Positions 16,100 to 34,314 of a stretch of DNA of 64,000 nt are shown here, piece by piece. The notes under the pieces are model-generated. The model worked only from the letters and a program-made list of their open reading frames with translations. It had not been told where the DNA came from and made no database searches. Origin of the DNA: Heliorestis convoluta (lineage in GTDB: Bacteria > Bacillota > Desulfitobacteriia > Heliobacteriales > Heliobacteriaceae); NCBI RefSeq assembly GCF_009649955.1, contig NZ_CP045875.1:2758501-2822500 (forward strand), in the 5' to 3' direction. Every line of letters begins with the position of its first letter. The first letter of the stretch is position 1. The position numbers and the translations under genes were made by a program.

Positions 16100-17047
16100 C
16101 TAATGCAAGAGATAGGGGGAATGATCGTTCCATGACCCATCTCGCCACTCGATAAAAAGCTCGCGCAAATCATTGTCAATTAGATGAATGTCCTTATCTA
16201 CAAAAATATCTTGTCCAACAAAAGAAAGATAAACGATGACGCCAACATGGACGGGATTATAAAAATTGCTTTCAAGAGCCAAAGCAAAAGCGGTGGTCAA
16301 CATACGATGAGAAAAGGAAATAGGAGCTTCATCGAATCTATCATCCCTGTGATTCTTAAGCACTTTCAAAATCACAACTGCAGAACTTCCTAGCTCGGTA
16401 ATTCGTATAACATCGGCTTTAAGACCTGCTACGAGACCAATGAGGTGACCCTGCAATGACATTTGCAAATTGAGAGGCACCGTTTTAAGAGCTAAAAAGT
16501 CCATGCTAATGTTTCTATGATGGGCCAGTACTTCCTCTATCCGAACCATTATTCTTCTGCGCTCATAATTAAGCAATCGCTCTGCATTTGCTAGAACTCT
16601 CTGATCTTGTTCTTTAGGATAGATCGGTAGAAGATCAAGAACATCTTTGCTTAAAAGCCCTAGAACCTGCAACTTCTCGATCTCTTTTTGTATCTCATTC
16701 AGTACATCGACTGGTGCTTTTCCAGGTTGTTGATAGATAAGAAGTTTAACTGCACTAAGAAAGTTAACAACTACATCATAATAGACTTTTTCGGCAATAC
16801 CCACAGGATTGATTGTTACCGTCATTTCTTCCCAAGCACTAGAATTCCCTGTTGAACTTACTTGCTCGTAGCTCTCATGCCTTTCCGTTAGAGTTTCAGA
16901 TTCGACAGAAAAGGTATTATAAAAAGGACATAAGGGCTTTCGAAAACAGTTCCATCCATACAGTTCTTCATCCACTGCTTGTTCTTTCAACCGTTGTAAC
17001 TCCTGGAAGAGAACTCTTCTCCGCTCTTCGTCAGTAAAAAATATCAT
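16100..17047 (-). CDS. Degenerate Csa1-family (type I-A Cas4-like) protein
   Basis: 315 residues. The N-terminus (DEERRRVLFQEL, then VDEELYGWNCF) and the later DNDLRELFIEWRD block match the layout of Csa1, the Cas4-like RecB-fold exonuclease of type I-A systems that helps spacer acquisition. The copy looks inactive. The expected E-x-K of the RecB motif reads ILK (in VVILKVLKN), and the C-terminal cysteine cluster that should follow FIEWRD is absent because the protein ends 11 residues later. ATG has an AAGGAG site. It is the last gene of the I-A-like operon, after a 137-bp gap. Confidence 0.6.
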   Translation of the reverse strand: MIFFTDEERRRVLFQELQRLKEQAVDEELYGWNCFRKPLCPFYNTFSVESETLTERHESYEQVSSTGNSSAWEEMTVTINPVGIAEKVYYDVVVNFLSAVKLLIYQQPGKAPVDVLNEIQKEIEKLQVLGLLSKDVLDLLPIYPKEQDQRVLANAERLLNYERRRIMVRIEEVLAHHRNISMDFLALKTVPLNLQMSLQGHLIGLVAGLKADVIRITELGSSAVVILKVLKNHRDDRFDEAPISFSHRMLTTAFALALESNFYNPVHVGVIVYLSFVGQDIFVDKDIHLIDNDLRELFIEWRDGSWNDHSPYLLH

Positions 17048-17132
17048 GGTGATTCACTCCTTCATACTCTACACGACTACTTCTGTTGCGAAAATATCCT
17101 TTGTTTTCCAATGTTTCAACACTTCTTTCTTC

Positions 17133-17160
17133 ATTATAATGGTTCACTTCTACTTCAAAA
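17133..17160 (-). promoter_or_regulatory. Weak candidate promoter for the csa1-like gene
   Basis: On the minus strand a perfect TATAAT lies 16 bp after TTTTGA, about 85 bp upstream of the start codon. The -35 box is poor. Confidence 0.3.
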
Positions 17161-17184
17161 GGAATCTACTTATCATTCAAAAAA

Positions 17185-18267
17185 CTACATTTCGTGAGAA
17201 TGAGCCAACGTTCTAAACACTTCTATCTCCAAGTCCCCCAAACCAAAGCTTGTCGCTTTCCCCAGATGAATAAGTTGTCCCCAAAGCAAGATAGGCAGAA
17301 GTTCCTCTATCCAATCACTTTCACCTTCTAGAATGAGATAGCCCATCAATCCACCCAGCTTCATCTTTGCATTTTGCCGGCTTGAGTAGCGCTCCCAGTC
17401 TGTCCAAGTATAAGCTTCTTCTCGCAATTGTAGGGCTTCTGCTTTTTTAATATACTTAGCAAAATCAATTTTCCACAGTTGTTCACCGTAATAAGCTGCT
17501 ATCACAGAGAGGCGGCGTAACAGCCCTCGAAAAAGTAAAGTTGCAGAAAGCTTGTCTTGCAAGCGCTTGTCTGCTTTCAATCGAAGCGGTGTCTTAAAGG
17601 TTATTTTGATGAATGTAGTAGCTTCTTTCTTTTTATGAGTACTAGAGTGCGATTGAACAGTAGAAGTAGAGTATTCAAGAAGTTTTTTCACTCTCTCTTT
17701 CACATCTTGTGCCGACAGATACAATTTCGTTGCTAAATTCCACTGACCTCCTTCATAAATAGATTGACTCCCTTTGGTAAAGGGGTTCACCACAGAGGCT
17801 TCTACCACGCGAGCGCTGCGCAATCCTTTGCCAAGTCCTCTTTCTAAAGATCGTGCAAAGGCTGATAGAAGATACGGAGCAAAAGGCATGGCTTTGCCAA
17901 AAAGGGTCATCTCAACTTCAAAAGTTTCATCACGTTGATAATGACTTTTGCCCTGTGTATAAGGCCTCAATACAAAAGGTGCCGGAATTTCTTGCCCTTT
18001 CAGAAAAAGTCCTTTGCGATCATCAGGTACAAGAGGATTGAAAAGCATCGTCACAGGGCAAATCATTTGATAAAAACAACCAGAACAGACTTGAGCCTTT
18101 CCGGCTGTACAAGCAATGTCACGAAGAGCGTGACCTAAGGCGCCACGAAGCGTTGAGCCGGAATAAGCTGGTAAAACCAAACCCTCTGCCCCTGCTGCGA
18201 TAACAATTCGAAAGCGCTGTACCTGTAACTTAGGATGAGGAAAAGCCTTGATAGGATGTGTAACCAT
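17185..18267 (-). CDS. cas6: Cas6 endoribonuclease, PF10040-type (second cas6)
   Basis: A 360-residue RAMP protein that would cut pre-crRNA. The N-terminal block STLRGALGHALRD is followed by a Cys-rich region (CSGCFYQMIC, about residues 62-71). The C-terminus has the glycine-rich IHLGKATSFGLGDLEI loop that identifies the PF10040 Cas6 group seen with type I-A and III systems. The start (18267) follows AAAGGAG by eight bases and overlaps the end of cas5 by 38 bp. It belongs to a different Cas6 subfamily from the cas6d at 26.4 kb, though only one array lies in the window, so the division of labour is open. Confidence 0.8.
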   Translation of the reverse strand: MVTHPIKAFPHPKLQVQRFRIVIAAGAEGLVLPAYSGSTLRGALGHALRDIACTAGKAQVCSGCFYQMICPVTMLFNPLVPDDRKGLFLKGQEIPAPFVLRPYTQGKSHYQRDETFEVEMTLFGKAMPFAPYLLSAFARSLERGLGKGLRSARVVEASVVNPFTKGSQSIYEGGQWNLATKLYLSAQDVKERVKKLLEYSTSTVQSHSSTHKKKEATTFIKITFKTPLRLKADKRLQDKLSATLLFRGLLRRLSVIAAYYGEQLWKIDFAKYIKKAEALQLREEAYTWTDWERYSSRQNAKMKLGGLMGYLILEGESDWIEELLPILLWGQLIHLGKATSFGLGDLEIEVFRTLAHSHEM

Positions 18268-18940
18268 GAGAAGAAACTCCTTTGAAACCTTTCAATACAA
18301 TAGGCTTAAAAATCCTGTCGTTATGAACTTTTTGCCTTGCCGCTGAGTAAGAGTCAAAAGCATCAAATGAAGATGTCGTACCCATATCATCCATCATTTG
18401 AATTACCATGCCTTGTTCTATTACACGATGAAGGTCTTGTTGATTACTCTGAAGTTCCGACAATTCTAGCGAAAAATGTTCAGGCAGTTCTGCTTCTTCC
18501 CACTGCTTTTGATATTGCACAAAGCTTCCTCGTTTGCCAAAATAGTTAATAAACGTCACAAGTCGTTGCAGTCGCTCTTTTTCATAAAGAAGCAGATCCG
18601 AAGTTTCTAAAGCGATGAAAAGCAAGCCCTCCCAGAAAACGTATTGTCGCAAACCTACCGTTGTCTGATAAGACTTTTCGCTTTCTCGAGATTCTTTTAA
18701 GGTTCTGACAAAGCTATTATTCACAATAACAGACTGTGGTAGCTTGAAAGCAATTTTCAAAGGGCGAATCCAGTGAAAATCTTCTTCGCCTTGACCATCC
18801 CAACGAAAAGAAGCATCGATCAGGGCCATTTTTACAGCATAAAAGGTTGGAATAAGATGGCTCTTTCCGCCTGAACTGGTGGAGGAAGAAAGTCGCAGGG
18901 AAAAAAGATTGGAGGCACTATAAGAACTAACCAACCACAT
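18230..18940 (-). CDS. cas5: Cas5 (type I-A-like)
   Basis: A 236-residue RAMP that caps the crRNA 5' handle in Cascade. The N-terminal stretch SSSTSSGGKSHLIPTFYAVK followed by MALIDASFRW is characteristic of Cas5 of DevS/I-A-type modules. I choose ATG 18940 (six bases after GGGAAGTG) over the in-frame GTG at 18949. It sits between cas7 (13 bp upstream) and cas6 (38-bp overlap), the usual tight packing of an effector operon. Confidence 0.72.
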   Translation of the reverse strand: MWLVSSYSASNLFSLRLSSSTSSGGKSHLIPTFYAVKMALIDASFRWDGQGEEDFHWIRPLKIAFKLPQSVIVNNSFVRTLKESRESEKSYQTTVGLRQYVFWEGLLFIALETSDLLLYEKERLQRLVTFINYFGKRGSFVQYQKQWEEAELPEHFSLELSELQSNQQDLHRVIEQGMVIQMMDDMGTTSSFDAFDSYSAARQKVHNDRIFKPIVLKGFKGVSSHGYTSYQGFSSS

Positions 18941-18953
18941 TTCGATCACTTCC

Positions 18954-19892
18954 CTAAAGAGACTCTGCTAGATCTGTTAAAATAGCGACCAATTGAGCAA
19001 GGTTATTGAATTGATTACAATGCACCTTGTTGCCTGGCCAGCGATTCAGTTGTTCAGCGACGGCGATTATTTCCTGCTCATAAGTATCTTTCAACGGAGA
19101 AAGGGTAGGCGCTGGTGTCATATTGGTCGACGTGGTGACAACACCGTTGATAGAAAGCAGATGAGGATGGTCTGTGCTTTTGTGAGCACCATTTATACTT
19201 ATTAACATATGAATAATGCTTCTGATCATAGCGATTTGACGTTTTTTCCGCTCTTCATCGTCAATGACATATTGACGTACGCCATCATGATAACCAACAC
19301 GGTTTAATTCTACGTGCATAACCAAGGCATAGACACCAGAATTGCTAGGTCGATAGAAAAGGATAGGGCCTCTGTTACCGTTATTTTCAGCATTTGCTGT
19401 AGCAGTGTCAAACTTTACATGTAAGTGCGACTCTGTCGTTGTCCGCTCCGGAATACCCAAAAGCCAACCGAATTCAACGACTGACTTCCGTGCAACAGAA
19501 CGCCTCCCTTCCGTAATTAAGACGCCAGCAAGGTCATCGACGGTACAATAAGGAATTACTTCATTTAATATTTGAATGTTATTTTTGCTATCTATTTTCT
19601 CTATAGACTTTAAAAAAGGGCGATCTACATTAATTCGATTGGCGTTGCCCTTATTACAGCCCGCACAAAGAGGCAGGCCCGTTTCTTTGGCGATTGAGAT
19701 AAGGCTTTCCGTCTGAATATGCTTGAGCATATCACCACTGATAGCGTTTGTTTCTCTGATCTCTCCAAACTGATCCACGATATGAACCATGCGTGCTTTT
19801 ACGTAATTTCCTTCTGTGCCTTCGTTATTTAAGCAATGCATGTCTAATGTTACTTGTGCAGAAAGAGAAAAGGATTTAATGTCATTCTTCAT
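18954..19892 (-). CDS. cas7: Cas7 (Csa2/DevR family) crRNA-backbone subunit
   Basis: A 312-residue RAMP of the Cas7/Csa2/DevR family, which forms the helical backbone of Cascade along the crRNA. The N-terminus LSAQVTLDMHCLNNEGTEGN and the following ETNAISGDMLKHIQ block are family signatures. A CAGCNKGN segment (about 97-104) is a local variation. ATG follows AAAGGGTGACC. It lies 18 bp after cas8a and just before cas5. Confidence 0.8.
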   Translation of the reverse strand: MKNDIKSFSLSAQVTLDMHCLNNEGTEGNYVKARMVHIVDQFGEIRETNAISGDMLKHIQTESLISIAKETGLPLCAGCNKGNANRINVDRPFLKSIEKIDSKNNIQILNEVIPYCTVDDLAGVLITEGRRSVARKSVVEFGWLLGIPERTTTESHLHVKFDTATANAENNGNRGPILFYRPSNSGVYALVMHVELNRVGYHDGVRQYVIDDEERKKRQIAMIRSIIHMLISINGAHKSTDHPHLLSINGVVTTSTNMTPAPTLSPLKDTYEQEIIAVAEQLNRWPGNKVHCNQFNNLAQLVAILTDLAESL

Positions 19893-19910
19893 GATTGGTC
19901 ACCCTTTTTA

Positions 19911-21638
19911 TCAACCCTCTTTTTTTGCTGATCCGTAAGCTATTAAAAGCACAATCACAGGTTCTGACCCAAAATCATCGATCAAGTGAATGAGTTGGGT
20001 TATTTCTTGATCTGTAATGCTGGGGCGTCGCATGATTTCTTCATCTCTAAAGGAATCTGGGCTTCTGGCAATTATTTCTGTTATCCTTGCATTTTCAAAG
20101 TTATAAGCACTGATGAAATCACTAAGACGCGCTATGGCATCTTTTTTGGATCCCGCTTTACGTTTCAAATCAGTCAATAGCGTATAGTGCACTTCATAGT
20201 ATGGCCTTGGCTTTCGATCTTGTTGTCGCGCTCTACGATATTGTTCTGAGACAGTAGCTCTTCGTATGGCATTGGCAACAGCTTGAAACCCAGGATTGTT
20301 AATAATATCACTGTATCTTCTGTTCAATGATATCACCAGCTTTGATAATAATTCTTCACGCAGTCTTTCTAATATTTTTTTAGAATCTCTCGACATTTCA
20401 TGAAATACAAAAATTCCGTAAGCAACGGCAAAGTGCAATAGAGTGATGCTTTTGCCTGTAGACAGAAAATCTCTATACTGAAAAAGCAGCTCCGCTTCTT
20501 CTAGTCTTTCTTCTCGTAACCTTTCAAGAATGCTTCTATGTTCTCTTGCGATCTGGAGCCACAATTCTTTATCTTGAAGCGTTTCTATAGAAAACCAGGT
20601 GGGTAAGCCTATGGTACTTACGTTGAGTAACCCTTTGCCGGTGCCTAAGCTTTTGAAGTAAGCAGTTGACAAAGCCGCTATATATTGTTGGGGACTCTTA
20701 TGTTGCTTTTCTACGCCTACGTCTAAGCTAGAAAAAAGATCTTTCACAATTTCACTTGTCATAGCGAGGCTATTTTGTATGTCGATCTGACAAGATGACT
20801 TTTGGTAATGTGGAATTCTAGTAAAGTGATGGCTTAATTGATCAAGTTCTTCTAAAGTTACATTGGCAGGCACTAGGACTGTAATTTTAATATCATCATG
20901 AATGTTATAGGCATTGGCGATACGATGAATTGCTATGTATCGTAGATATTCTGTGAACCAGTCAACGTAGGCAGAAGGCACTGTTGCCAATCCTGTACCT
21001 TTGGGCTTGCTGCGGTTAAATCCCTTGCCTACAATCGGATTAAGAGCTTGTACTGCTGCAAGAGAAGGCGAAAAAACTTTATGCTTTCTCTTTGTATCTT
21101 CTTGCCCTCTGGAAAAGCCTGTTTCTACGTTGTTACCGATTGATGTTATAGTGTATCGTTGCACGTTGGCCTTTATTGTTTCACGAAAAGATTGTGGTTC
21201 AACCTGAGATAATTCATGCAACAATCTGTTATGGCTGTGAAAAGCTTGCATGATGTAGAGGTTTTTGAGTAAGCTATGCTTTGGGTGAGGTTCCAATATA
21301 TTTTCTTGTCTTAGGCAGGTCTTTTTTGCATTTTCCCAGTACCTCTTCTCCTTCTCTCTTTCTTTTTCATAGTCATAAAAGAGGTACCCTTCTGGCACTG
21401 TATGATCTTTGCTCGTCTTAAAGTAGGGATAGCCTGGTGCAGCTTGTAATCTATCGAAGTGCCAACTATCAAGGGCCTTCGCCTTCCGTAGTGTAATTTG
21501 ATAACAATCTCCTATATTCTTAATTCTTTCTACATTCTTAGGCATTAAAATGTCTAGCAAATAGGCAAGCCCAACTGCCTCTAGAGCATCTGCGTAAGTA
21601 CCTGTTTTATGAGAAACGTAAAAGTACTGGTTCTCCAA
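19911..21638 (-). CDS. Cas8a-like large subunit
   Basis: A 575-residue protein at the head of the I-A-like operon, in the position and size of Cas8a. It is rich in helices, and the N-terminal KTGTYADALEAVGLAYLL resembles the start of Cas8a1/Csx13-type large subunits, which recognise the PAM and recruit Cas3. I recognise it by context and N-terminus rather than by a catalytic motif. The TTG start (21638) follows GGAAGTG. No csa5 small subunit, cas3' helicase or cas3'' HD nuclease follows, so this effector has no nuclease of its own in the window. Confidence 0.65.
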   Translation of the reverse strand: MENQYFYVSHKTGTYADALEAVGLAYLLDILMPKNVERIKNIGDCYQITLRKAKALDSWHFDRLQAAPGYPYFKTSKDHTVPEGYLFYDYEKEREKEKRYWENAKKTCLRQENILEPHPKHSLLKNLYIMQAFHSHNRLLHELSQVEPQSFRETIKANVQRYTITSIGNNVETGFSRGQEDTKRKHKVFSPSLAAVQALNPIVGKGFNRSKPKGTGLATVPSAYVDWFTEYLRYIAIHRIANAYNIHDDIKITVLVPANVTLEELDQLSHHFTRIPHYQKSSCQIDIQNSLAMTSEIVKDLFSSLDVGVEKQHKSPQQYIAALSTAYFKSLGTGKGLLNVSTIGLPTWFSIETLQDKELWLQIAREHRSILERLREERLEEAELLFQYRDFLSTGKSITLLHFAVAYGIFVFHEMSRDSKKILERLREELLSKLVISLNRRYSDIINNPGFQAVANAIRRATVSEQYRRARQQDRKPRPYYEVHYTLLTDLKRKAGSKKDAIARLSDFISAYNFENARITEIIARSPDSFRDEEIMRRPSITDQEITQLIHLIDDFGSEPVIVLLIAYGSAKKEG

Positions 21639-22114: not shown

Positions 22115-24261
22115 GTTTCAATTCCGCAAGCGGAATAACCTTCATTGGAGCGCAATGGCATCCAATGAGTAACGCAAGGACGATTAGTTTCAATTCCGCA
22201 AGCGGAATAACCTTCATTGGAGCTCAATCGACTAGCTGAAACACCGATGTCCTTAGAGTTTCAATTCCGCAAGCGGAATAACCTTCATTGGAGCTCTGCC
22301 TTCCAAATTGGAACGCCTCGGCTCTCGTCTCGTTTCAATTCCGCAAGCGGAATAACCTTCATTGGAGCCGCAATGGCGCCGTCTACCTCACCACCTGCGG
22401 CAATGTTTCAATTCCGCAAGCGGAATAACCTTCATTGGAGCTTTGAGTACATCAGAAAATTCAAGATGTTGGAAAAAGAGGTTTCAATTCCGCAAGCGGA
22501 ATAACCTTCATTGGAGCGGACAAGGTAACACTATCAATCGATTCATAATCAAAGTTTCAATTCCGCAAGCGGAATAACCTTCATTGGAGCTGGTAGTTGT
22601 TCGGGAGTGAAGTGCAATAGGGGTGAGTTTCAATTCCGCAAGCGGAATAACCTTCATTGGAGCAGGTGAAAATCCATGCTACCGGTACCCGTGAGCCTTG
22701 TTTCAATTCCGCAAGCGGAATAACCTTCATTGGAGCTCAACCTGACCGTGTGATGCCGTAGCCGGTTTACGAGTTTCAATTCCGCAAGCGGAATAACCTT
22801 CATTGGAGCTCAACCTGACCGTGTGATGCCGTAGCCGGTTTACGAGTTTCAATTCCGCAAGCGGAATAACCTTCATTGGAGCAAGTCGAAGTATGCGCCG
22901 AGCTGCTAGAGATCATTGTTTCAATTCCGCAAGCGGAATAACCTTCATTGGAGCCTTGAGGCTGTAGGAGCAATGGAATCGCTCGGTGTGTTTCAATTCC
23001 GCAAGCGGAATAACCTTCATTGGAGCCTTGAGGCTGTAGGAGCAATGGAATCGCTCGGTGTGTTTCAATTCCGCAAGCGGAATAACCTTCATTGGAGCCA
23101 AGCTCTAGTTGACTGACATAGAAGAGATAATCCGGTTTCAATTCCGCAAGCGGAATAACCTTCATTGGAGCAGGTAGGCATGGCATGATTAGCTTCATGG
23201 TCAAAGTTTCAATTCCGCAAGCGGAATAACCTTCATTGGAGCTGCGATATATGCAAGGAGAAGTGCAAATGATAGATAGTTTCAATTCCGCAAGCGGAAT
23301 AACCTTCATTGGAGCTCTAACGCTTTCAATATCCTAGACTGTTCTGCTTTGTTTCAATTCCGCAAGCGGAATAACCTTCATTGGAGCCAAAGATAAATTC
23401 CGTGTCGTTCTTGAAAATCAAGTTTCAATTCCGCAAGCGGAATAACCTTCATTGGAGCGTAATTGATAAACTCTTTAGGATAGCGACAAAGAGAAGTTTC
23501 AATTCCGCAAGCGGAATAACCTTCATTGGAGCAAAGCCTGCACCCATAATGCAGCCTAGCAAAGCTAGTTTCAATTCCGCAAGCGGAATAACCTTCATTG
23601 GAGCGTTTTATGTATTCGTGTGATATTGGCAGCATATCGGTTTCAATTCCGCAAGCGGAATAACCTTCATTGGAGCTCAACTTTCACTCTTTCGCCTCCA
23701 ACTGTTTCTTAATGTTTCAATTCCGCAAGCGGAATAACCTTCATTGGAGCCTGTACTTGCTTATCGCTGTATGGAGACTTGTCCAAGTTTCAATTCCGCA
23801 AGCGGAATAACCTTCATTGGAGCAGAGCGAGAGTGGAAAGCAAAGTGGAAAACTAACTACGTTTCAATTCCGCAAGCGGAATAACCTTCATTGGAGCCGT
23901 GATATAATCTTATATGCGTGATACTCATTTAGGTTTCAATTCCGCAAGCGGAATAACCTTCATTGGAGCGCAAGCGCTGATAAGGATCTAGTCATCGCCA
24001 AGAAAGTTTCAATTCCGCAAGCGGAATAACCTTCATTGGAGCTAAAGAAATCGTGTTCTGCATTGTATCTAATTTCAAGTTTCAATTCCGCAAGCGGAAT
24101 AACCTTCATTGGAGCTTATCAATGGTGTAAACACGTCTAATATATCATCATTGTTTCAATTCCGCAAGCGGAATAACCTTCATTGGAGCTAGCACTTGAT
24201 GGTCGTGTAACAGTTTGGAGTTTTGTTTCAATTCCGCAAGCGGAATAACCTTCATTGGAGC
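22115..24261 (-). CRISPR. CRISPR array, 30 repeats of 37 bp, 29 spacers
   Basis: Thirty identical 37-bp repeats start at 22115, 22187, 22258 and onward to 24225, with spacers of 34-39 bp. On the transcribed (minus) strand the repeat begins GCTCCAATGAAGG and ends GCGGAATTGAAAC. It contains the hairpin ATTCCG-CTTG-CGGAAT and gives the standard ATTGAAAC 5' handle, so the leader is at the high-coordinate end beside cas2. No degenerate terminal repeat is present. Two spacers are tandemly duplicated (22737-22772 = 22810-22845; 22955-22989 = 23027-23061). I could match no spacer to the window. Confidence 0.98.
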
Positions 24262-24468: not shown

Positions 24469-24750
24469 TTAAATGATAAACACACTTTCATCTCTCGGCT
24501 GAGTGCCTCCAATGCGATCAATTTTTTCTTTACAATCGTCGCAGAGCGTATAAAAACGAATGCTATCTTCTTGATAATTGATAATCTTGTCCAATCGATT
24601 CCTTAGTTTCAAATATTGCTCTTTCGTAAGATTGCATTCAAATACACTATATTGCATCCATTCTCCATAGGACTTTAATGCTTTAAGTACTTTTCCACGT
24701 CGTTTGTCGTTCGGAATATCGTAGGATACTACGATAAGCAATTTCGTCAT
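24469..24750 (-). CDS. cas2: Cas2 adaptation protein
   Basis: A 93-residue ferredoxin-fold protein that forms the Cas1-Cas2 integrase. The N-terminal strand with the conserved Asp reads LLIVVSYDIPNDKRRGKV (residues 4-21), and length is typical. ATG follows AAGGTGGG. It is the last gene of the I-D operon, before the leader; it lies 30 bp beyond the restored cas1 stop. Confidence 0.92.
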   Translation of the reverse strand: MTKLLIVVSYDIPNDKRRGKVLKALKSYGEWMQYSVFECNLTKEQYLKLRNRLDKIINYQEDSIRFYTLCDDCKEKIDRIGGTQPRDESVFII

Positions 24751-24780: not shown

Positions 24781-25777
24781 TTATTTTGCTCTGAAAGGTA
24801 TATATTTTTCTGTTTCTCCTGTTATCCATTTTGCTAAAATTCTTCCTTGCAGTTCAAAACATCGACTATAGGTAATCTTATAGTTAAAGATTGGATGATT
24901 GACTGCTGTGTTTTTTCTTTCTTCAAATTTTCGGTAAAACTCTTTTTTTTACACTATCTTTCAGTGAACAAACACCAAGATCGATATCAAAGTCTTTTTC
25001 AGTAATCATATTGTTGTTAATCATGCTAATCACAACAGAGTCTACAATGATTGTTCTAAATTCTTCCACTAGATCCAAAGCAAGCGATGCACGTCCATAT
25101 CGATCACCGTGAAGAAAACCTATATAAGGGTCAAGGCCAACAATCGCTAAAGCGCTTTGTATGTTATGGGTTAACAAAGTATAACCTAATCCAAGCAAAG
25201 CATTCACTGGATCAGTGGGTGGACGTCGAATACGTTTTGCAAAACCAAAATCATTTTTCAAGATTTCAGGGAACACCTGAAAATAGATAGCAGCTGCATT
25301 TCCTTCATATCCTCTGATCTCATCAAGTGTTTCTACACGGTTCAATCCTTTTTTGGTCTTTTTGATGCTTTGAATTGCTTCTGAAAGTTTTTTGTGTGGA
25401 GAAGCACGATGTTGGCGGGCCAAGAACGTGATCTGATTGTTGATTTTTCCATTTATAATTCTTTTGGCTACTTCTACCCTTGCTTTTGGATCTTGATAGA
25501 TTTTATGTTGTGCGATGCGAAGCAAACCATTTCTAGAGTCGGGCGCTTCATATCTCCCTAAGTAATTTCCATATTGGGAAAGAAAGCAAATATTTATTTT
25601 TCTCTCCATTAGTTCTGCCACTGTTGGGGCTGTTACTGTGACATTTCCAACGATAACGATCTGATCTATTTTTATAATAGGAACGTCTATTAGAACATCT
25701 TTTTCTAATGTTACTACCAGTCGTTCATCTGTTTTTCGTAAAGTAGAGCGTTGCTCTGTGATATAAAGTGTACTCAT
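24781..25777 (-). pseudogene. cas1: Cas1 integrase, C-terminus displaced by a single-base frameshift
   Basis: The open frame (25777 to 24923, 284 aa) holds the integrase core. Catalytic Glu is in RGYEGNAA, and the conserved His, Asp and Glu lie in GFLHGDRYGR and LALDLVEEFR. At a run of eight A (24950-24943) the frame shifts. Dropping one A restores VKKEFYRKFEERKN and 48 more typical Cas1 residues to a TAA at 24781-24783, total 331 aa, the normal length. The truncated protein lacks the C-terminal helix. Possibilities are real inactivation, transcriptional slippage on the A8 run, or an assembly error. It overlaps nothing and lies 2 bp after cas4. Confidence 0.88.
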
Positions 25778-25779
25778 TT

Positions 25780-26388
25780 TTAACCCTCCTTTGCCTTGCT
25801 TTCTTCCTGCACTGCCTTACGTATCATAGTAACTTCTCGAGGTAAACATCTTTCTATCAAGCTACATCCTGAACATCGAGGTCCATACTTCTGCACAGGT
25901 CTTTCTGCTGTTATAAACATTTGTTGAACTGCTTGAATTACTTCTTGGGTTTTAAGTCTTAGTTCTTGATCAAAGGTAACTTGTAGACGTAGCCGCGAGC
26001 CAAAATAATAAAGAAAACCATATTCTATTCTTTTGTCTAACATGTATTCTAAAGCTAGTGCTTGTGCACAGAGTTGGACTTCATCGTTTTGCCATTTACC
26101 ACGACGACCTTTTTTATACTCTACAGGATACGTTAAATTCCCTTTTTCCTCTACCAAATCACTTTTCCCGATTATTCCCAGCTCTTCATGGTATAATTTT
26201 ACTGCTCGGTGCTTTAAAATACCTTCTCTACCTAGAATGCCAGGCATATCTACATTTTGATGTAGAAAAGTACCCGTTAATGTATGTTCATTATCAATGT
26301 ATTCACCACAAATGTACTCTAGATAACAACGAAAAGGACAATATGAATAGGCATTGAGTGCCGATATTGGTACAATGATGGGTTCCAC
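25780..26388 (-). CDS. cas4: Cas4 exonuclease
   Basis: A 202-residue RecB-family nuclease that trims prespacers and selects the PAM end. The iron-sulfur cysteines are Cys in SYCPFRCYLEY (N-terminal) and CSGCSLIERC (about residues 172-181). The RecB E-x-K motif is in PVEYKKGRR (about 90). GTG start after AAAGGGAGGTG. It is intact, unlike the csa1-like paralogue at 16.1 kb. It sits directly upstream of cas1. Confidence 0.92.
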   Translation of the reverse strand: MEPIIVPISALNAYSYCPFRCYLEYICGEYIDNEHTLTGTFLHQNVDMPGILGREGILKHRAVKLYHEELGIIGKSDLVEEKGNLTYPVEYKKGRRGKWQNDEVQLCAQALALEYMLDKRIEYGFLYYFGSRLRLQVTFDQELRLKTQEVIQAVQQMFITAERPVQKYGPRCSGCSLIERCLPREVTMIRKAVQEESKAKEG

Positions 26389-26437: not shown

Positions 26438-27307
26438 CTATGGTTTTCTTTGTACTTTTATCGTTTGCCCCAAACCCATGGTACTTTTATAGCCACAACC
26501 AGCAAATTGGCCAAACCGTACTAAAAGATCGAAGAGATATCGCATATGTGCTGGAAAACGGTGCCAGTCTAGCCGTATCCAACCTACTGAGCCTTTGATC
26601 ATATACTTTCCATAATCAATTGTAACTGTTTTTAAGTTGTAATCTGATATGGCTACTTCTTGGTTGATTTTGTCTAGCAATGAAGCTTCGTGAGGGTTCT
26701 TTGGTGATTCCATAGCTTCTCTTTGTCCTAGAAGCAAATGTGTTGGGGCAAAGTTTTCCCATTTTAATAGCCAGCTTTTGAACATAAGCTCGGGATCGGG
26801 AAAAGGGTAGTTAATGTTACCGCGTCGAAAAGACAGTGGCGTTACAATACGAATTTCACAACCATTGCTGGCGACTGCTTCATTAAGTAATTGTTCATAT
26901 GTTGTCGTTTGGCACCATCTATCTGTATCGTTGAAAGTCGCTTGCCAGGTGCGCAGCATGACTTGGTTTTTGCCTAACGTAATTAGAGGATTGCTCGACT
27001 CTGTGAAATTTTGGGTATAATAAAGCAAACTTTTGTTAAATGCTTCTGCGACTTTACGATCTAAGAAGGTAATGCGAACTGTGTACTCCTGTCCTTGTCT
27101 CAAAATCGTTGGTTTGTTTGTACTTAGTAGTTCTGGTGTCAAACCGATTGTGAACGGTTTGACACCAGAAACATTGTGAAGTTCTGTTGCCAGAGCAGGA
27201 TCGTTTTGAGCAATCATTTGCAGTAGTACAGCATGCCAGTGACGAGCCATCTGGTTAGCTGGTTCCGTTTTCTGAGGTATAAAGGTTAGTTTACCGGCAA
27301 CAAGCAT
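26438..27307 (-). CDS. cas6: Cas6d pre-crRNA endoribonuclease (type I-D)
   Basis: A 289-residue two-ferredoxin-fold RAMP. The C-terminal glycine-rich loop FAGCGYKSTMGLGQ is the Cas6 signature. It cuts at the base of the repeat hairpin and leaves the ATTGAAAC handle. The start is 4 bp beyond the csc1 stop, with AAAAGGAGTTAA upstream. It is the natural processor for this array; a second Cas6 of another subfamily is encoded at 17.2 kb. Confidence 0.9.
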   Translation of the reverse strand: MLVAGKLTFIPQKTEPANQMARHWHAVLLQMIAQNDPALATELHNVSGVKPFTIGLTPELLSTNKPTILRQGQEYTVRITFLDRKVAEAFNKSLLYYTQNFTESSNPLITLGKNQVMLRTWQATFNDTDRWCQTTTYEQLLNEAVASNGCEIRIVTPLSFRRGNINYPFPDPELMFKSWLLKWENFAPTHLLLGQREAMESPKNPHEASLLDKINQEVAISDYNLKTVTIDYGKYMIKGSVGWIRLDWHRFPAHMRYLFDLLVRFGQFAGCGYKSTMGLGQTIKVQRKP

Positions 27308-27310
27308 GAC

Positions 27311-28015
27311 TTAACTCCTTTTGTTTCTTTTATTTACCTTTTTCTTGGTTGTTTTTTCTTCAGGAAACTTATAACGCATCCCAGCAGGCAATAGGATTTC
27401 TTCACCTGTTCCTTTGAGTTTGTAATAGTCTGTTTCTAGATGAGCATCTGTGACGAGAGAAACAGGTGGCATGTTCAATAGATTAAACATACTAGGTTGT
27501 TGAGGCAAGTCTAATACATTTAATGGATGGGCCGAAACGAATTTTCCATTTTTTTGTTCGTACTCTATTTCTTCTGCTATTACTTCTACTTTGCTCATCC
27601 ATTTCCCCAAACGGATCCATTGAGGCCACGTAGTTCGTGCTTTGGTAAAAGCATAACTTATGAATCGAGATTCTGGTCCAATTTCCCGACATTGTCCGTA
27701 ACTGGGGATGTTAACGGATAGTTGTTCCGATTGTAATCGATAACGAACATCGGCAAGTTTAAAGGTATAGGATGCAAAGCTAACTTGAAGCGGTTTTGCT
27801 GGTGTTAGGTAGATACCTTGCTCATTTAGAGGTTCTAAGTGTTCTTGATAACGTGGTACATGATCTGGTTGATGATAGCTGCTAGCTGCAAGTCCAAAGG
27901 CATATGTTAATGCATAGTTGTGCAAATAAGCATCGGTTACGTAGACACGACCGAATTCCCGGGTAGCAAAAAACAGTGGTTCTGCTGTTATTAACTCCAG
28001 GCGATAGATGGGCAC
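27311..28015 (-). CDS. csc1: Csc1 (Cas5d-equivalent of type I-D)
   Basis: 234 residues. The N-terminus YRLELITAEPLFFATREFGR and the later TDAYLHNYALTYAFGL block are hallmark Csc1, the Cas5-family RAMP that holds the crRNA 5' handle in the I-D complex. GTG start after AGGTGGTG. The lysine-rich C-terminus (KTTKKKVNKRNKRS) is probably flexible. It lies 38 bp after csc2. Confidence 0.9.
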   Translation of the reverse strand: MPIYRLELITAEPLFFATREFGRVYVTDAYLHNYALTYAFGLAASSYHQPDHVPRYQEHLEPLNEQGIYLTPAKPLQVSFASYTFKLADVRYRLQSEQLSVNIPSYGQCREIGPESRFISYAFTKARTTWPQWIRLGKWMSKVEVIAEEIEYEQKNGKFVSAHPLNVLDLPQQPSMFNLLNMPPVSLVTDAHLETDYYKLKGTGEEILLPAGMRYKFPEEKTTKKKVNKRNKRS

Positions 28016-28053: not shown

Positions 28054-29034
28054 TCACTTCTTCTTACCTTTTTTCACGCCGATTTCCGCTCGAGTGCAAT
28101 ACTCTTTCATCTCTTTGTCTAAATCTTTCAAAAAGGCTCCTTGCTTCTCTCGATCTTCTAGTGTTTTTTGCAGTTCTATCATGACTTCTTCTAGTTGTGA
28201 TCCTTCTACTTTTTCATATATGACATTGCTGTTTTGGAGCAGCTTTTGCGTTGCTTCTGCTGTGGCTTTAGTCACTTGATCCCAAGCTAAGAGAGCGGGC
28301 AATTCTATATCTTTTTCTTGGTCTTTTGTTAGCTCATCATAGATGGCCTGGGTTAAACGTAAATTACTGAAAATCTCACCATCAGCGAAAACAATGGCCA
28401 TAATACGATTTTCTACAACGCCTGTACGTGTCGTTTGAGCCCCGTAGCGCTTGGTACGACGAATGTTGTTGAGCAGGTAAGCCAATCCTAACGCGGTTGG
28501 ATCACGCAATGTTACAACGGTAGGAAAGTAGGTTTCGGGCTTTACATGATCTTGTTCACTAAATCGACTTGTGGTTTCTCCTTTTTTGGTCATGGTTCCA
28601 TGTTCGTAGGGTGCGTTTAAGGTAAAGGTTTCATGGGATTGATCATAAGCGCTGATAGAGAAAGCCGTGTCCGCATAGACTTTGGACTTTTCTGCACCGG
28701 AGTCTCCAATAGCATAGCCGTAGAGTATGCAATCAGGGCAAGTGCAACAAAATGATACATTGTAGTCACATTCTTCACCGATTATTGCATGGGCACGCAA
28801 TAGTTCTCGTCCTGTGAGCCTTTCTGCTGTTGTCTGCTTTCGTTTGAAAATGGCAATACGAGCCATTGGTTTCCCTTTCTCTATACCTGCGTTAACGATG
28901 GCTGTATTTAAGGCGCCATCTGTCTGAAACACTGCGTAAGAGTCGGTACGACGCAATACGAGCAGGTGGGCATATTTACCGCTCGGAATTAGCGGCAACT
29001 GGCTATGGAAGTGCTTTTCGTAATTTTTAAACAT
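28054..29034 (-). CDS. csc2: Csc2 (Cas7d backbone subunit of type I-D)
   Basis: 326 residues of the Csc2 family, which polymerises on the crRNA. Conserved blocks include HAIIGEECDYNVSFCCTCPD (zinc-type cysteines, about 80-99), GAEKSKVYADTAFSI and DPTALGLAYLLNNIRRT. Start after AGGAGGACAAGC. It comes just after the separate small-subunit gene. Confidence 0.92.
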   Translation of the reverse strand: MFKNYEKHFHSQLPLIPSGKYAHLLVLRRTDSYAVFQTDGALNTAIVNAGIEKGKPMARIAIFKRKQTTAERLTGRELLRAHAIIGEECDYNVSFCCTCPDCILYGYAIGDSGAEKSKVYADTAFSISAYDQSHETFTLNAPYEHGTMTKKGETTSRFSEQDHVKPETYFPTVVTLRDPTALGLAYLLNNIRRTKRYGAQTTRTGVVENRIMAIVFADGEIFSNLRLTQAIYDELTKDQEKDIELPALLAWDQVTKATAEATQKLLQNSNVIYEKVEGSQLEEVMIELQKTLEDREKQGAFLKDLDKEMKEYCTRAEIGVKKGKKK

Positions 29035-29065: not shown

Positions 29066-29515
29066 TTACTCTTGCGGTGCAGCCTTTTCTGTATCGGTAT
29101 CCTGGCTTTTGGAGCGATAAGCGTAAGTTTTGATGTAGTAGGCTTCGCAACCGTTTTTGAGTCGATTGAGGTACTTGCGCAATAGGGCTCGGCTGCCTTT
29201 GCTGTAGTCATCGAATACTTCTTCTAAGAAGAGCTGGACAAATTGTTCCACCGCTTCTCTTTGCGCTGCTGGTTCTTTGTAAAGAGGCAGCCAACCAGAG
29301 GCACTGTCATGGTCATTGCGCACTCGATCCAAAAAAGCATTGATCTCCCCTTGTGCTATTAAGGATAAGCTTTCACGATCTGTGTGGGCTGGCGCTTTGA
29401 GTAAACAATCTGCTACGATGCTCAAAGGACGCAGTCTTGCGTAAGCTGAATCTTTACGGGCTCCTGAACGATAAAAAGAAGCGTAACTGTCTACCACCCT
29501 TGTAATCATGGCCAT
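29066..29515 (-). CDS. Cas11d small subunit encoded as a separate gene
   Basis: A 149-residue helical protein corresponding to the C-terminal part of Cas10d, which in studied type I-D systems is produced by internal translation of cas10d as Cas11d. Here it has its own reading frame. ATG 29515 lies ten bases after GGGAGG inside the last codons of cas10d, and its ATGGCCATGA spans the cas10d stop (TGA 29508-29506). Earlier in-frame ATG 29533 lacks a ribosome binding site. The charged tail (SKSQDTDTEKAAPQE) is probably flexible. Confidence 0.7.
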   Translation of the reverse strand: MAMITRVVDSYASFYRSGARKDSAYARLRPLSIVADCLLKAPAHTDRESLSLIAQGEINAFLDRVRNDHDSASGWLPLYKEPAAQREAVEQFVQLFLEEVFDDYSKGSRALLRKYLNRLKNGCEAYYIKTYAYRSKSQDTDTEKAAPQE

Positions 29516-32202
29516 TTTATTTTTCCCTCCCATCTCAGGATCTCTTCATAATATGTTGTAATGCGTTCGTAGGCTTTTAAGAGTCTTTCAGCCATCGTTG
29601 TGTTCATACCCCGTGTTGTGGTTACATTCCCGCCACCGCGCTGGTTGGTTGCAATTCGGTCGGCATAATAGAAAATGATAAGAGGATCCGATTCTACAGC
29701 TCTGCAGATGCTATTTAACTGATTCCAGACAGGAAAATTTCTGCTATCACGATAGGCGTCGGAAGTTATTTCATATAGTGCCATGGCTCCGTCAAAAGCT
29801 AGGGATAGTTCATCGAGTCGAAATACACTTTTTGCCATACCATGTTGCCAGAAAGAATGGGGTGAATCTAATAGAACTGTTTCTCTGAATTCCGTCCCAC
29901 TACGGTAGACAGGGATGGGGGAGCGACTGGCATAGACTTTGACGCCTAGCAGTACGGGTGTGAATAAGGCTAGTAAGACTGGCATACTCCAGCGCTCCGT
30001 ATCGGTTGGATCTCTTCCCATATAAGGAATACCGACCATATGGTATCCATGTCGCTCCCCCATTGAATAGGCGATCTTTTTTATGGAGCGATTATCTTCA
30101 GGCTTTGTAAGCTTAAAGATATCATGGTTGCATAGTTTTTTAAGTTGACCATGGCTTTGCTCGTAAGGTTTTCTAAGTTCGCTAAAGGTAACATTGTGCA
30201 ATTTATTGTATATCTGAGAAATGGCTCGCGCTGTAATTGGGGTAAAGAAGTAGGCTGGATATAGATGCAGAAATACGGCGTCATCTTGTTCTTTGATTGT
30301 GCTGTTCATGCCTGTGCGTCGTAACAAATTCTCTGTTTGGCAAAGGTCGCAAATACCGCGCCCTGATGGGACTTTCCAACCCACGATTTTTTTGTTTGTA
30401 AATATGGAGAATTCTTCAACGTTAGAGAAGGGGCTATTACAAATTGCACATACTCTTTTACCACTACGCAAAGCCTTGTTTTTAGTGTATAACTCTAGTT
30501 CGTTTTCAAAGTCCCATTGATTTTTCTGATCGACTACTTTTCCACTTTCTACGGTAAGTACATTTGATAAGTAAGGCTCTAAAAAAGCAAAAGGCGGTTT
30601 CGTCTCTGGTACGCCACATTCTTCTAAAACATCTTTGTATGCTTTGTTCAAAATCTCTTCTGTTTGTTCAGGGCTAAGACCAGGGTTCTTTTTTGCATAG
30701 TGTCCAGCAACGTAAAACCAGGGATAGCCTACCCCGCCGGTGTAAGGAATGGCTTTCCAATAGGGAAGATGCTTTTCCATCTCTAAAGCACGGACTAGTT
30801 TTTCTCCATAGATTTGATAGTTATTGCTTTTTCCTGTATAGTAATGGGCTAATAATTTGGATAAGGCAAAGCATCCTTCTGCCAAACGATCTGCTATGAG
30901 TGAGGCGGGAAAGTTCAAATCTAGAACGAGACCACTGTCTTGGGCAAGTACCATCTTTTCTTTGCGTTGCTCTGTTACGGGTGTCTTTTTCTCTGAAATC
31001 ACTTGCATTACACGACTGCTCATGACTTGACCTGCTAATTCGGGTGGAAGTAATTCTACAAAAGAAGTGGGAAATTTAAATCCAATGCCAGCACGACTAA
31101 TCAGTGACCCAGCTTGTCCTTTTAACTTATCTAGTAGCTCTTGGCGTATACTTTGAGCCAAATTGTCTATGACAGGTTCTTTGCCTTCTTGTGGTACTAG
31201 ATAAGTAACGCCTTCTGCGAAAAAGAGAAAAGGTTTCCACTTGGCTTTGATCGCTTCTTGGATGACATGGTTGTGAATGATTTGAGTAAGCCGTCCTCGG
31301 TTTTCTGATGTCTTATGATAGGCAACTCGATAGCGACCTTGAAGCAATCGGCGTAATAGATCTAGAATTTTTCTGCTTTTTGCGGTTAATAAATCTTCCG
31401 GTCTGCTTACAAGGGCAGGTGTTGCTAATAAATCGGCCAAACGAACGAATTCGCTTAGATCTTCTAGTAAATCCGATGACGTTTTCAGCTCTTTATAGTT
31501 TGCTAAGGTACGGTTTTCACCGCGTTTTGCTTCGGCATTTTGAGCAAGAAAAGCTACATCGTATTGATAGCTGCGATCTAGGAACTGCCAGATATTTAAC
31601 TTCTCAGCCCATTTTTCTAAGGCTGTTACGTAGTCTTCACTATTTTCACTGTCTAATCGTAGATCTTGGCCTTCCATTTTGTTTAAGTCATGGAGGGCAT
31701 AGCCAACGAGAAATAGACGTTGTTCTTCTTCTGAAAGATTGCAAAGTTTTACTATCACCCAGGTTGCCATGGTTCCATTGAGTATATGGGTAAGTAAACT
31801 TTGATCGGCTAGATGCACAAGTTTGTCGATCCTTGCTTGCAATGTCTTGTCTACATCTTTTTGGCTTTCTATGTTGAGCAATGTGAGAGCCTTACGATGA
31901 CTCATTCCTTTGGCATTCACATCGGATAATTGTTCGATTAGGGAAGGTAAAATCGTGCCTATCCATTCTCTTAGGATTCGATCTCCTGGTTCCGTTGATT
32001 TGTAGAGAAAGTGTGCCAGTGGTGGCATCTCCTCTGGTTCTTTTTCATCTTCTTCTAAAAAATCATAATCAAGCACTGCATACATTTCATTTTCTTCTTC
32101 TGAATCTACCATATCTAACTGCAACTGAACTTCTTCTCCCTTTATCAACTCCTTTGCTTCTGAGCTACCGCTTCTGTTCTTCGTAGACTTATTATGACTC
32201 AT
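29506..32202 (-). CDS. csc3: Cas10d (Csc3) large subunit with HD nuclease domain
   Basis: 898 residues from ATG 32202, eight bases after AGGAGG (the GTG at 32211 lies in that site). The N-terminal HD nuclease carries HD in LVGYALHDLNKMEG (about residues 165-178), and in type I-D this supplies the nuclease that Cas3' lacks. A central zinc-binding pair, VCAICNSPF and ICDLCQTE (about 600-640), precedes the divergent palm domain, which lacks GGDD, so no cyclic oligoadenylate synthesis is expected. The usual C-terminal small-subunit segment is split off into the next gene. Confidence 0.9.
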   Translation of the reverse strand: MSHNKSTKNRSGSSEAKELIKGEEVQLQLDMVDSEEENEMYAVLDYDFLEEDEKEPEEMPPLAHFLYKSTEPGDRILREWIGTILPSLIEQLSDVNAKGMSHRKALTLLNIESQKDVDKTLQARIDKLVHLADQSLLTHILNGTMATWVIVKLCNLSEEEQRLFLVGYALHDLNKMEGQDLRLDSENSEDYVTALEKWAEKLNIWQFLDRSYQYDVAFLAQNAEAKRGENRTLANYKELKTSSDLLEDLSEFVRLADLLATPALVSRPEDLLTAKSRKILDLLRRLLQGRYRVAYHKTSENRGRLTQIIHNHVIQEAIKAKWKPFLFFAEGVTYLVPQEGKEPVIDNLAQSIRQELLDKLKGQAGSLISRAGIGFKFPTSFVELLPPELAGQVMSSRVMQVISEKKTPVTEQRKEKMVLAQDSGLVLDLNFPASLIADRLAEGCFALSKLLAHYYTGKSNNYQIYGEKLVRALEMEKHLPYWKAIPYTGGVGYPWFYVAGHYAKKNPGLSPEQTEEILNKAYKDVLEECGVPETKPPFAFLEPYLSNVLTVESGKVVDQKNQWDFENELELYTKNKALRSGKRVCAICNSPFSNVEEFSIFTNKKIVGWKVPSGRGICDLCQTENLLRRTGMNSTIKEQDDAVFLHLYPAYFFTPITARAISQIYNKLHNVTFSELRKPYEQSHGQLKKLCNHDIFKLTKPEDNRSIKKIAYSMGERHGYHMVGIPYMGRDPTDTERWSMPVLLALFTPVLLGVKVYASRSPIPVYRSGTEFRETVLLDSPHSFWQHGMAKSVFRLDELSLAFDGAMALYEITSDAYRDSRNFPVWNQLNSICRAVESDPLIIFYYADRIATNQRGGGNVTTTRGMNTTMAERLLKAYERITTYYEEILRWEGKIKWP

Positions 32203-32232
32203 CTTACTCACCTCCTCATGAAATAAACACTT

Positions 32233-34314
32233 TTAGGTGATAAACACCTCATTCGTTTTCCGCCAAAACATGATGGAATCAAGCATTAGAGCATCTTTGC
32301 CGAACGAAACAGGGTAGATACCGTTGTAATCACGTACCGCATGGAGTTCAAAAAAAGGCGGCAAGGCCCAGCGCCGTCGCACTTGTGTTACATCTAAGAT
32401 AGAATCTAGTACGCAAGTGCAAAAATATTGACGTTCTACTTTTTTGTTAATGGTGAATATTTCGGGATGTCTTGCTTCTAGGAAAAAACCTTTTCGTCGG
32501 CAAGCTGTATTGAGTAGTTCTTTTTCAGTGATTAGCTCGTCGTTGTAACGCAATGCCACTTCCAATTTTTGATCAAGATATCCTTCTATGACTGCATAGA
32601 GCTTGATGGCTGGCTTTCTCCAGGGTTCTCCCATTTTTTCTGCTATTTTCTGTGCTTGGTCTTCCTCGATAAATGTAAGGTGACAAATGGAGAGCAATCG
32701 TGGTAAAGACATGGTGCCAACTCTTTTTGATTCTTTTTCATAGACCCATACATCCCACAAGCCAGCACCACGAAGAGCTAGTAGTTCTTTGATTACTTCG
32801 ATTTGCTTTTCTTTCTGCAAGTGGATGTAGTGCCCCCAGTTGTTTTTTTGGGTGTTGAATACAACTCGACTTAAAGGCTTTAGATTATCTAGAAGTTCTT
32901 GATAGTGCCTACGGCCATGCTTTTCTAACTGAGCAATCTGGTGAATTGAACGAACGCTTCCCCAGCGACTTACATAGTTTCGAAATTCATTGTGTGGTCG
33001 ATAAACCTCTTCTCGAATCCAAGAGAAAAAGGTTTGTCGATCGATTTTCTCTCCCTCAATCTCTTTTTCTTCTAGTCTTTCTACAAGATAAGAAGGCATA
33101 AGAGCGATGGCCAAATAGGTTGCAAAGCCGCTGTGTCGTCCCAGCCTACCGAGCCTTTGAATGAACGTTCCTGCATCCATCGATTCAAACAAAAGAAAGT
33201 TAATCTTAAAGTCCACGCCTACATCGACTGTGGATGTAGCAATAATCAAATCAGCATTCCAAGAAGCTTTCGCTTTTTCTTTTCCTGTTAATCCTGTGTT
33301 TTCGCCAATAGAGATAGTGCCTTGTAGTTGTTCTTTTAAGTAACTATAAAGTCGCTTGGCTGTATAAACAGAGTTGCAGATAATAAGACCTTTGCTTTCA
33401 GGATAATTTTGAAAAAAAGATGTGATTTCGTCGATATGTTCTTTAACCCAGTCCAAGAGATCGCCCGCACTTTGATCATGTTTGGCGAGCTTTAGTTTTA
33501 CGGGTGCTAATATACGCCGATAGTGATTGCTATCTATGGTGTCATCACCGTGGCAATACTCACCCTCTACTTCAGCACATTGAAACCCTGCTGCTTCGAG
33601 GCCTTGTAGGAGCAACTGATGGGGCGTGGCAGAAAGAAATAGAAACTTTGTGCCATGCTGATGTCCATGACTTGCTCGGATCATAAGCATGGCTTGTAAG
33701 ACTTCCACGATCTGCGGTGTTTGGAATATGTGAAATTCATCAAATACGATGTATTTGAATCGATTGGCAAATCGTTGTGCCATGGCTGCTACATTGTGCT
33801 CTGGTGAACGATAGGCAAAGTTCATAATAAGAGAAAACAAATCGGGGTTGGTAAATAGAAGATTTTTTCGATGAATAAGATCTAATATCGCTTCAAACTT
33901 TCTGGTCTCTTCTAAGCTTGCATATTCGTTGATACGTCGAGCGTTGAGCATTTCCATAAAAAAATTACGCCCTGGGTCATAGCCGAATAATCGATAATAA
34001 CCAGGGTTTGTTAAGTCATCATCCATAGCTTGTCGGTATTGATCTCGCAATAGTTCGTTGGTGGGATAAGCAAAACTTCCAGACCCGATCGGTTTAGCAG
34101 GATAAGGTCGTAATAAAGGCAGGTGTGCCGCCAAACTTTTTCCGTCTCCAGTCATAGCTGTGTTAAATACAACATCTACATCGGAACTATGTAACAATTG
34201 ATACGTTCTCAGTTGGTGTGAAGATAGTTTCCACTTTTCCGGTAGGTCAAAGGGTGCTTTCTCCTCTGTTAATTTTGACCAGAGTGATTCTAAATAAACT
34301 TCTAAACTAAACAC
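32233..34314 (-). CDS. cas3: Cas3' helicase (type I-D)
   Basis: A 693-residue superfamily-2 helicase without an HD domain, as expected in type I-D. Walker A is TAMTGDGKS (52-60), the DExH box is VFDEFHIF (about 192-199), motif III is FLFLSATPHQL, and motif VI is QRLGRLGRHSG. It unwinds DNA for Cas10d cleavage. The only in-frame start is GTG 34314; GGGGG lies immediately next to it, too close for normal Shine-Dalgarno pairing, so translation initiation may be weak. First gene of the I-D operon. Confidence 0.9.
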   Translation of the reverse strand: MFSLEVYLESLWSKLTEEKAPFDLPEKWKLSSHQLRTYQLLHSSDVDVVFNTAMTGDGKSLAAHLPLLRPYPAKPIGSGSFAYPTNELLRDQYRQAMDDDLTNPGYYRLFGYDPGRNFFMEMLNARRINEYASLEETRKFEAILDLIHRKNLLFTNPDLFSLIMNFAYRSPEHNVAAMAQRFANRFKYIVFDEFHIFQTPQIVEVLQAMLMIRASHGHQHGTKFLFLSATPHQLLLQGLEAAGFQCAEVEGEYCHGDDTIDSNHYRRILAPVKLKLAKHDQSAGDLLDWVKEHIDEITSFFQNYPESKGLIICNSVYTAKRLYSYLKEQLQGTISIGENTGLTGKEKAKASWNADLIIATSTVDVGVDFKINFLLFESMDAGTFIQRLGRLGRHSGFATYLAIALMPSYLVERLEEKEIEGEKIDRQTFFSWIREEVYRPHNEFRNYVSRWGSVRSIHQIAQLEKHGRRHYQELLDNLKPLSRVVFNTQKNNWGHYIHLQKEKQIEVIKELLALRGAGLWDVWVYEKESKRVGTMSLPRLLSICHLTFIEEDQAQKIAEKMGEPWRKPAIKLYAVIEGYLDQKLEVALRYNDELITEKELLNTACRRKGFFLEARHPEIFTINKKVERQYFCTCVLDSILDVTQVRRRWALPPFFELHAVRDYNGIYPVSFGKDALMLDSIMFWRKTNEVFIT

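Follow-up and report, generated by a model that had tools for sequence, protein, structure and literature searches.

Cas1 of type I-D CRISPR systems is represented by the 334-position family model TIGR04093 (Cas1d) and by the structures of Synechocystis Cas1 (PDB 7CR6/7CR8). The cas1 gene of Heliorestis convoluta is like these in that two pieces of it match positions 1-284 and 283-333 of 334 of the model, and unlike them in that one base breaks its frame between residues 278 and 279. An extra base in an A/T run is also the kind of error described for 454 pyrosequencing, in which insertions are the commonest error of the GS20 instrument and nearly 70% of homopolymer extensions are of A or T (PMC2323236); the H. 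convoluta assembly differs in that it also had Illumina reads at 35x, which are expected to correct such an error. In Citrobacter rodentium tssM1, a stop similarly follows soon after an A run with an intact frame behind it, but that run has 11 A, compared with eight in H. convoluta, and RNA polymerase adds A's there, whereas one A must be removed here (PMC4256274). The slippage-prone A/T runs of bacterial genes are, like the run in cas1, homopolymers inside coding sequence. They differ from it in that selection against them is evident at nine bases in a large share of genomes (PMC1088944), and no deletion on poly(A) runs was seen with E. coli RNA polymerase (PMC6260861).

H. convoluta HH is a heliobacterium from an Egyptian soda lake with a genome of 3,218,981 bp, for which 22 putative pseudogenes and one CRISPR are given in Table 1 of the genome report (PMC7143216). 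The genome was assembled with Velvet from 454 GS20 data at 14x and Illumina GAIIx data at 35x (PMC7143216). The window, which is the whole stretch of DNA analysed here, comprises 64,000 nucleotides.

A one-base shift at an A run in cas1

The genes of the I-D cluster are arranged along the minus strand in the order cas3', cas10d, a 155-aa ORF, csc2, csc1, cas6, cas4, cas1, and cas2, followed by the CRISPR array. The features of the cluster are as follows:
24469..24750 (-): cas2, intact, the sole copy found in the genome (PF09827)
24781..24942 (-): C-terminal 53 codons of cas1 and the stop, in the neighbouring frame (TIGR04093; PADLOC Cas1g and Cas1d models)
24943..24950 (-): A8 run, the frame-break site (direct reading, alignment, and frame-switch scan)
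24923..25777 (-): assembled 0 frame of cas1, with 284 aa: 278 Cas1 residues followed by six out-of-frame ones
25780..26388 (-): cas4, intact (PF01930, TIGR00372)
26438..27307 (-): cas6 of the I-D cluster (PF10040)
27311..28015 (-): csc1 (cas5d) (TIGR03159)
28054..29034 (-): csc2 (cas7d) (PF18320, TIGR03157)
29506..32211 (-): cas10d (csc3), 901 aa, lacking the C-terminal portion of the model (TIGR03174; PADLOC Cas10_Id)
32233..34314 (-): cas3' of type I-D (TIGR03158)

The body of cas1 matched PF01867 with an E value of 4.9e-105. Its top-scoring subtype model was TIGR04093 (329 bits), although the truncated piece did not reach the curated cut-off of 385 bits, and the tail matched the same model with an NCBIfam E value of 5e-16. 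The assignment to Cas1d is backed by the neighbouring csc1, csc2, csc3, and cas3' genes, and the best PDB sequence match of the upstream piece was 7cr6. In 20 Cas1 sequences including that of H. convoluta, the columns E158, H223, and E238/E239 (numbering of the relative L032) were invariant. We take these columns to be the catalytic glutamate, histidine, and glutamate of Cas1, all of which lie within the upstream piece.

As assembled, the gene stops after 284 codons instead of continuing as one uninterrupted frame of approximately 330 codons. The break site, read as A8 in the gene, is a T8 on the plus strand (24943-24950) between a C and an A. The 0 frame terminates in KKRVLPKI with the stop at 24923, and the final six residues, RVLPKI, come after A8. 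In the Cas1 alignment, made up of 19 relatives plus the truncated piece, the Cas1-like part ended with S-V-K-K, both lysines of which are encoded by A8. The neighbouring frame from 24942 encodes EFYRKFEERKNTAVNHPIFNYKITYSRCFELQGRILAKWITGETEKYIPFRAK, a tail of 53 aa (codons 24942-24784, stop 24783-24781), which was up to 59% identical to the C-termini of other Cas1 proteins and 54-59% identical to the tails of the relatives L032, L034, and L041. ATG, GTG, and TTG are all absent from the in-frame codons of the tail; it is therefore no independent gene that begins at an ordinary start codon. When set by eye against the 20-sequence Cas1 alignment, the tail conformed to the family pattern right from its start. 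Since the family pattern is kept before the run and, in the other frame, after the run, the junction is located at the A run. An open frame alone is weak evidence, because a shifted frame remained open for at least 53 codons at 7-8% of 6,551 positions sampled in long ORFs. No second lesion was seen in cas1.

These results agree with the initial annotation, which described cas1 as broken at an A8 run with its downstream frame preserved: the run is present at 24943-24950, and the tail is intact and Cas1-like. Its further statement that dropping a single A restores Cas1 to the normal length also holds, as the 278 and 53 genuine Cas1 residues add up to 331, compared with 331 and 332 residues in the relatives L032 and L033. 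The lesion is thus a single-base shift at an A run in an otherwise ordinary type I-D cas1.

The body and the tail were each compared with 109 Cas1 loci, several of which share one genome. The tail was in the same frame as the body at all 49 loci with a detectable tail; the remaining 60 of the 109 gave no detectable tail match and are uninformative on the tail frame. In addition, the frame was open for 45-55 codons further at every one of the 89 loci whose body match reaches residue 278. The longest A run between 40 bases before and 25 bases after the homologous site had a length of seven at 3 of these 89 loci and six at 13, all of which were open past the site. The same frame break was found at none of the 109 related loci examined. 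The nearest relatives were approximately 45% identical over the body of cas1 (49% for the partial locus L041), and at this distance they provide no close copy by which the break could be dated.

A possible run-length miscall or recent replication slippage

The reading that we prefer, with a probability that falls just short of even, is that the extra A is a run-length miscall in the assembly. The real cas1 would then be an ordinary intact type I-D gene of 331 codons, and miscalling of the run length would have produced an assembled sequence with one A too many, the consensus at the A run probably having followed the error-prone reads. Cas1 would work normally together with Cas4 and Cas2 in spacer addition. 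This reading is supported by the GS20 chemistry, which is prone to precisely a one-base extension of A/T runs, and what was observed is a one-base length change at a run in a gene that is otherwise intact and was sequenced in part with this chemistry. On the other hand, 35x Illumina coverage should correct most such errors, the other breaks found at runs show a shift of 2 (a lost base), opposite to the shift of 1 (a gained base) in cas1, and real replication slippage is equally expected to give breaks at runs.

A runs are replication-slippage hotspots by nature. It is quite conceivable, at somewhat less than an even chance, that the sequenced strain really does carry the extra A, gained recently by replication slippage, which would leave a 284-residue Cas1 with acquisition lost and interference kept. 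This reading agrees with the description of A/T runs as natural slippage hotspots (PMC1088944). The truncated Cas1 would retain the catalytic residues and lose the last helix. AlphaFold2 modelled the full-length protein of the relative L032 with a mean pLDDT of 92.6, and the model had a Foldseek TM of approximately 0.7 against solved Cas1 structures. Its residues 279-331, which correspond to the part missing here, take in the last turns of helix 274-289, a pair of short strands, helix 303-318, and a tail, with block pLDDT values of 93-97 except for 79 at the last residue. The truncation thus removes a confidently modelled segment, which counts for a real mutation, and the absence of this C-terminal part makes it very likely that the truncated Cas1 would be impaired. 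A second cas1 as a functional substitute was sought and none was found; indeed, the genome yielded neither another cas1 nor another cas2, so that the loss of acquisition would be complete if the break is real. A self-targeting spacer as a reason for losing the system was tested by a BLAST search of the array against its own genome, which gave, besides the array itself, eight weak matches with E values of 1.8 or higher, such as one of 22 nt at 91% and one of 42 nt at 79%.

A real mutation is opposed by the fact that 454 GS20 sequencing produces exactly this one-base extension of an A run. Moreover, cas1 carries no further lesion, and cas2, cas4, and the effector genes are without clear decay by family match, although the split between cas10d and cas11d, which enters into this check, may be a true gene boundary. 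Taken together, there is little to choose between the miscall and a recent real slip, and we lean slightly toward the miscall. Of the readings offered in the initial annotation, a recent lesion and an artefactual one are therefore both retained, in accordance with the 454 GS20 data and the intact tail.

Frame switches elsewhere in the assembly bear on both of these readings. The sample consisted of 40 stretches of 20 kb and the window, 864 kb in total, 5 kb of which was N. Frame switches were sought with dicodon scans, since codon usage over 40 codons lacked the necessary power. In the first 464 kb, a frame switch was detected at 1 of the 29 informative A/T8 runs, namely that of cas1. With a looser stop treatment across the 864 kb, a switch was seen at 5 of 52 informative A/T8 runs and the remaining 47 were continuous, while 22 more runs were uninformative. 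In the looser scan, the fraction of switches was 4.7% at runs of three, 7.0% at runs of seven, and 9.6% at runs of eight; gene borders may be the cause of this rise with run length. Strict switches without a Shine-Dalgarno-backed start numbered 10 against 1,027 in-frame cases at runs of at least six, and 193 against 20,013 at runs of 3-5. The odds ratio was 1.01 (p 0.87), indicating no excess at the long runs; the test is weak, and most of the switches are probably ordinary gene borders. The assembly is therefore probably not riddled with homopolymer errors, which counts against a miscall, and the lack of an excess of such breaks across the assembly speaks for a real mutation in cas1.

A family search was performed on eight of the ten long-run switch sites without a Shine-Dalgarno-backed start, L132:1548 and L144:950 being left out. 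Three of these eight sites were splits within a family (cas1, L117, and L119:6518), and one was a likely split (L119:6277). Different families were found on either side at L113 and L135, L119:9650 gave no clear outcome, and the site at L139, of which the second piece alone was scanned, is presumably an IS3-type orfA/orfB pair. Control junctions without a run of at least six at the break showed splits in none of seven informative cases, one of which (L143) was a weak match. The controls were ten full pairs out of 60 without Shine-Dalgarno, without runs of at least six within 12 bases of the estimated break, and were hand-picked mostly from the top of the ranking, with some pairs (L123:4801, L144:16912, and lower-ranked ones) passed over. 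L136, L127, and L117:3974 were uninformative, and one extra control pair, L113:15394, had one piece alone scanned. The numbers are small, and breaks at long runs were sought harder than other breaks. The homology-confirmed breaks at long A/T runs, together with the controls, were counted for a miscall; such breaks fit both 454 errors and real replication slippage. We assume that the genes with the other frame breaks are dispensable, and this was counted for a real mutation.

Several of these split genes could be identified. The yyaC spore protease gene (L117:2028-2692, minus strand) was split at an A6, with matches to TIGR02841 at 3-96 and then at 101-140, by a lost-base shift. A glycosyltransferase gene (L119:5708-6872; G000:C1:1145708-1146872) was broken at a T6, likewise by a lost-base shift, with matches to PF00534 at 2-77 and then at 77-170, and has a likely second break at an A7 between its two domains. 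The flippase-like gene beside it (L119:8582-10008) may be broken at a T7. A gene for an HDOD response regulator (L125:2893-4109, minus strand) was found in two frames, with matches to PF08668 at 1-117 and then at 122-196, and its break seemingly lies outside a run, some bases beyond an A7, a point that was counted against the miscall.

Possible slippage bypass and phase variation

The initial annotation also proposed that the lesion is bypassed by slippage on A8. According to this explanation, the eight A are real, and some full-length Cas1 is nevertheless made by slippage of RNA polymerase or the ribosome on the run; we consider it improbable. An interrupted gene, tssM1 with 11 A, is rescued by polymerase slippage (PMC4256274), and in cas1 a +1 move would take the tRNA at the run from one AAA to another AAA and keep it paired. 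Apart from these points and the preservation of the cas1 tail, little favours a bypass. To restore the frame, the message would have to lack one A or the ribosome to move by +1. In a study of E. coli RNA polymerase, the poly(A) runs tested gave no deletion rescue, and eight A was the shortest run with any slippage, none being detectable below eight (PMC6260861). A bypass is therefore unlikely, because it requires the loss of one A, a change undetected for the E. coli polymerase on those runs. Selection against slippery A/T runs is evident at nine bases in a large share of genomes (PMC1088944), and the A/T8 runs of H. convoluta lay in continuous frames at 47 of the 52 informative sites in the sampled 864 kb. 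A -1 ribosomal slip would lead into a frame that is not Cas1. A +1 slip caused by a rare AGA codon was rejected, since the AGA found at the run, which makes up 11.6 per thousand of 82,316 codons, is no rare codon and is as frequent here as the common arginine codons. An out-of-frame tail was found in none of the 49 relatives, and neither the run length nor the broken frame is conserved. The bypass proposal was thus not upheld. Separately, a reading of cas1 with a four-letter code word was set aside, as it shifted the frame at an earlier site as well.

A leaky or reversible off-switch, in which a real A8 would leave most cells dead for acquisition with interference intact and rare replication or transcription slippage would restore acquisition, is slightly less probable still. 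The least probable explanation is phase variation, with the run switching spacer acquisition on and off among the cells of the population: a one-base change in the run would toggle the frame with the rest of the gene intact, but a long run is not conserved in the relatives (seven A in 3/89, six in 13/89), A/T8 runs are ordinary in the H. convoluta genome, and contingency loci usually have longer runs than eight A. Literature searches, judged by the titles listed, found no report of a programmed or homopolymer frameshift in cas1, the nearest being a paper on synthetic biology, and for CRISPR cas1 in heliobacteria a paper on nitrogen fixation.

A miscall or a fresh mutation is the most likely origin of the break, and a new mechanism is not needed. 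If it is a miscall, the assembly makes the sole Cas1 found in the type strain wrongly look truncated. If it is real, the locus is an ordinary case of a CRISPR system with a recent loss of acquisition that has kept a 30-repeat array. The slippage or phase-switch reading alone, at its low probability, would say something new on the control of CRISPR adaptation.

CRISPR array and effector modules

The array and its duplications are located downstream of cas2:
22115..24261 (-): CRISPR array, 30 identical 37-nt repeats, 29 spacers, 27 of them unique
22700..22845 (-): repeat-spacer unit of 73 nt, present twice in tandem
22918..23061 (-): another repeat-spacer unit, of 72 nt, likewise present twice in tandem

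We took the orientation of the array to be that suggested by the ATTGAAAC end of the repeat. The repeat farthest from cas2 is identical to all the others in the array (30/30). No further repeat copies with up to three mismatches were found elsewhere in the genome, and the array region gave no match to the phage collection. Numbered from the low-coordinate end, spacers 9 and 10 are exact duplicates, as are spacers 12 and 13. The two tandem spacer duplications noted in the initial annotation are therefore present, and the remodelling of the array that it deduced from them may be past recombination in the array or an effect of assembly. Such duplications are ordinary and can be explained by recombination between repeats, and they bear neither on the two readings of Cas1 nor on whether Cas1 works.

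The 155-aa ORF at 29066-29533 (minus strand) matches the C-terminal (Cas11d) part of Cas10d and lies apart from cas10d, with which it has an ATGA overlap; GGGAGG is found upstream. The region of this junction is one continuous frame in four relatives (L032, L034, L044, and L051). An in-frame internal start for Cas11d is widely conserved (PMC10212523). The ORF is either a free-standing cas11d or the result of another frame break.

A type I-A-like effector module at 16100-21638 (minus strand) comprises cas8a, cas7a, cas5a, cas6, and csa1, and its own cas3, cas1, and cas2 are absent. In the relatives G001, G004, and G005, the same I-A-like genes are found alongside cas1 and cas2, and a long frame beside cas8a weakly matches the I-D Cas3 helicase. 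The I-A-like module of H. convoluta may have lost cas3, cas1, and cas2 and rely on the I-D genes beside it, or it may be inactive. Three other Cas3-like_C_2 matches are present elsewhere in the genome.
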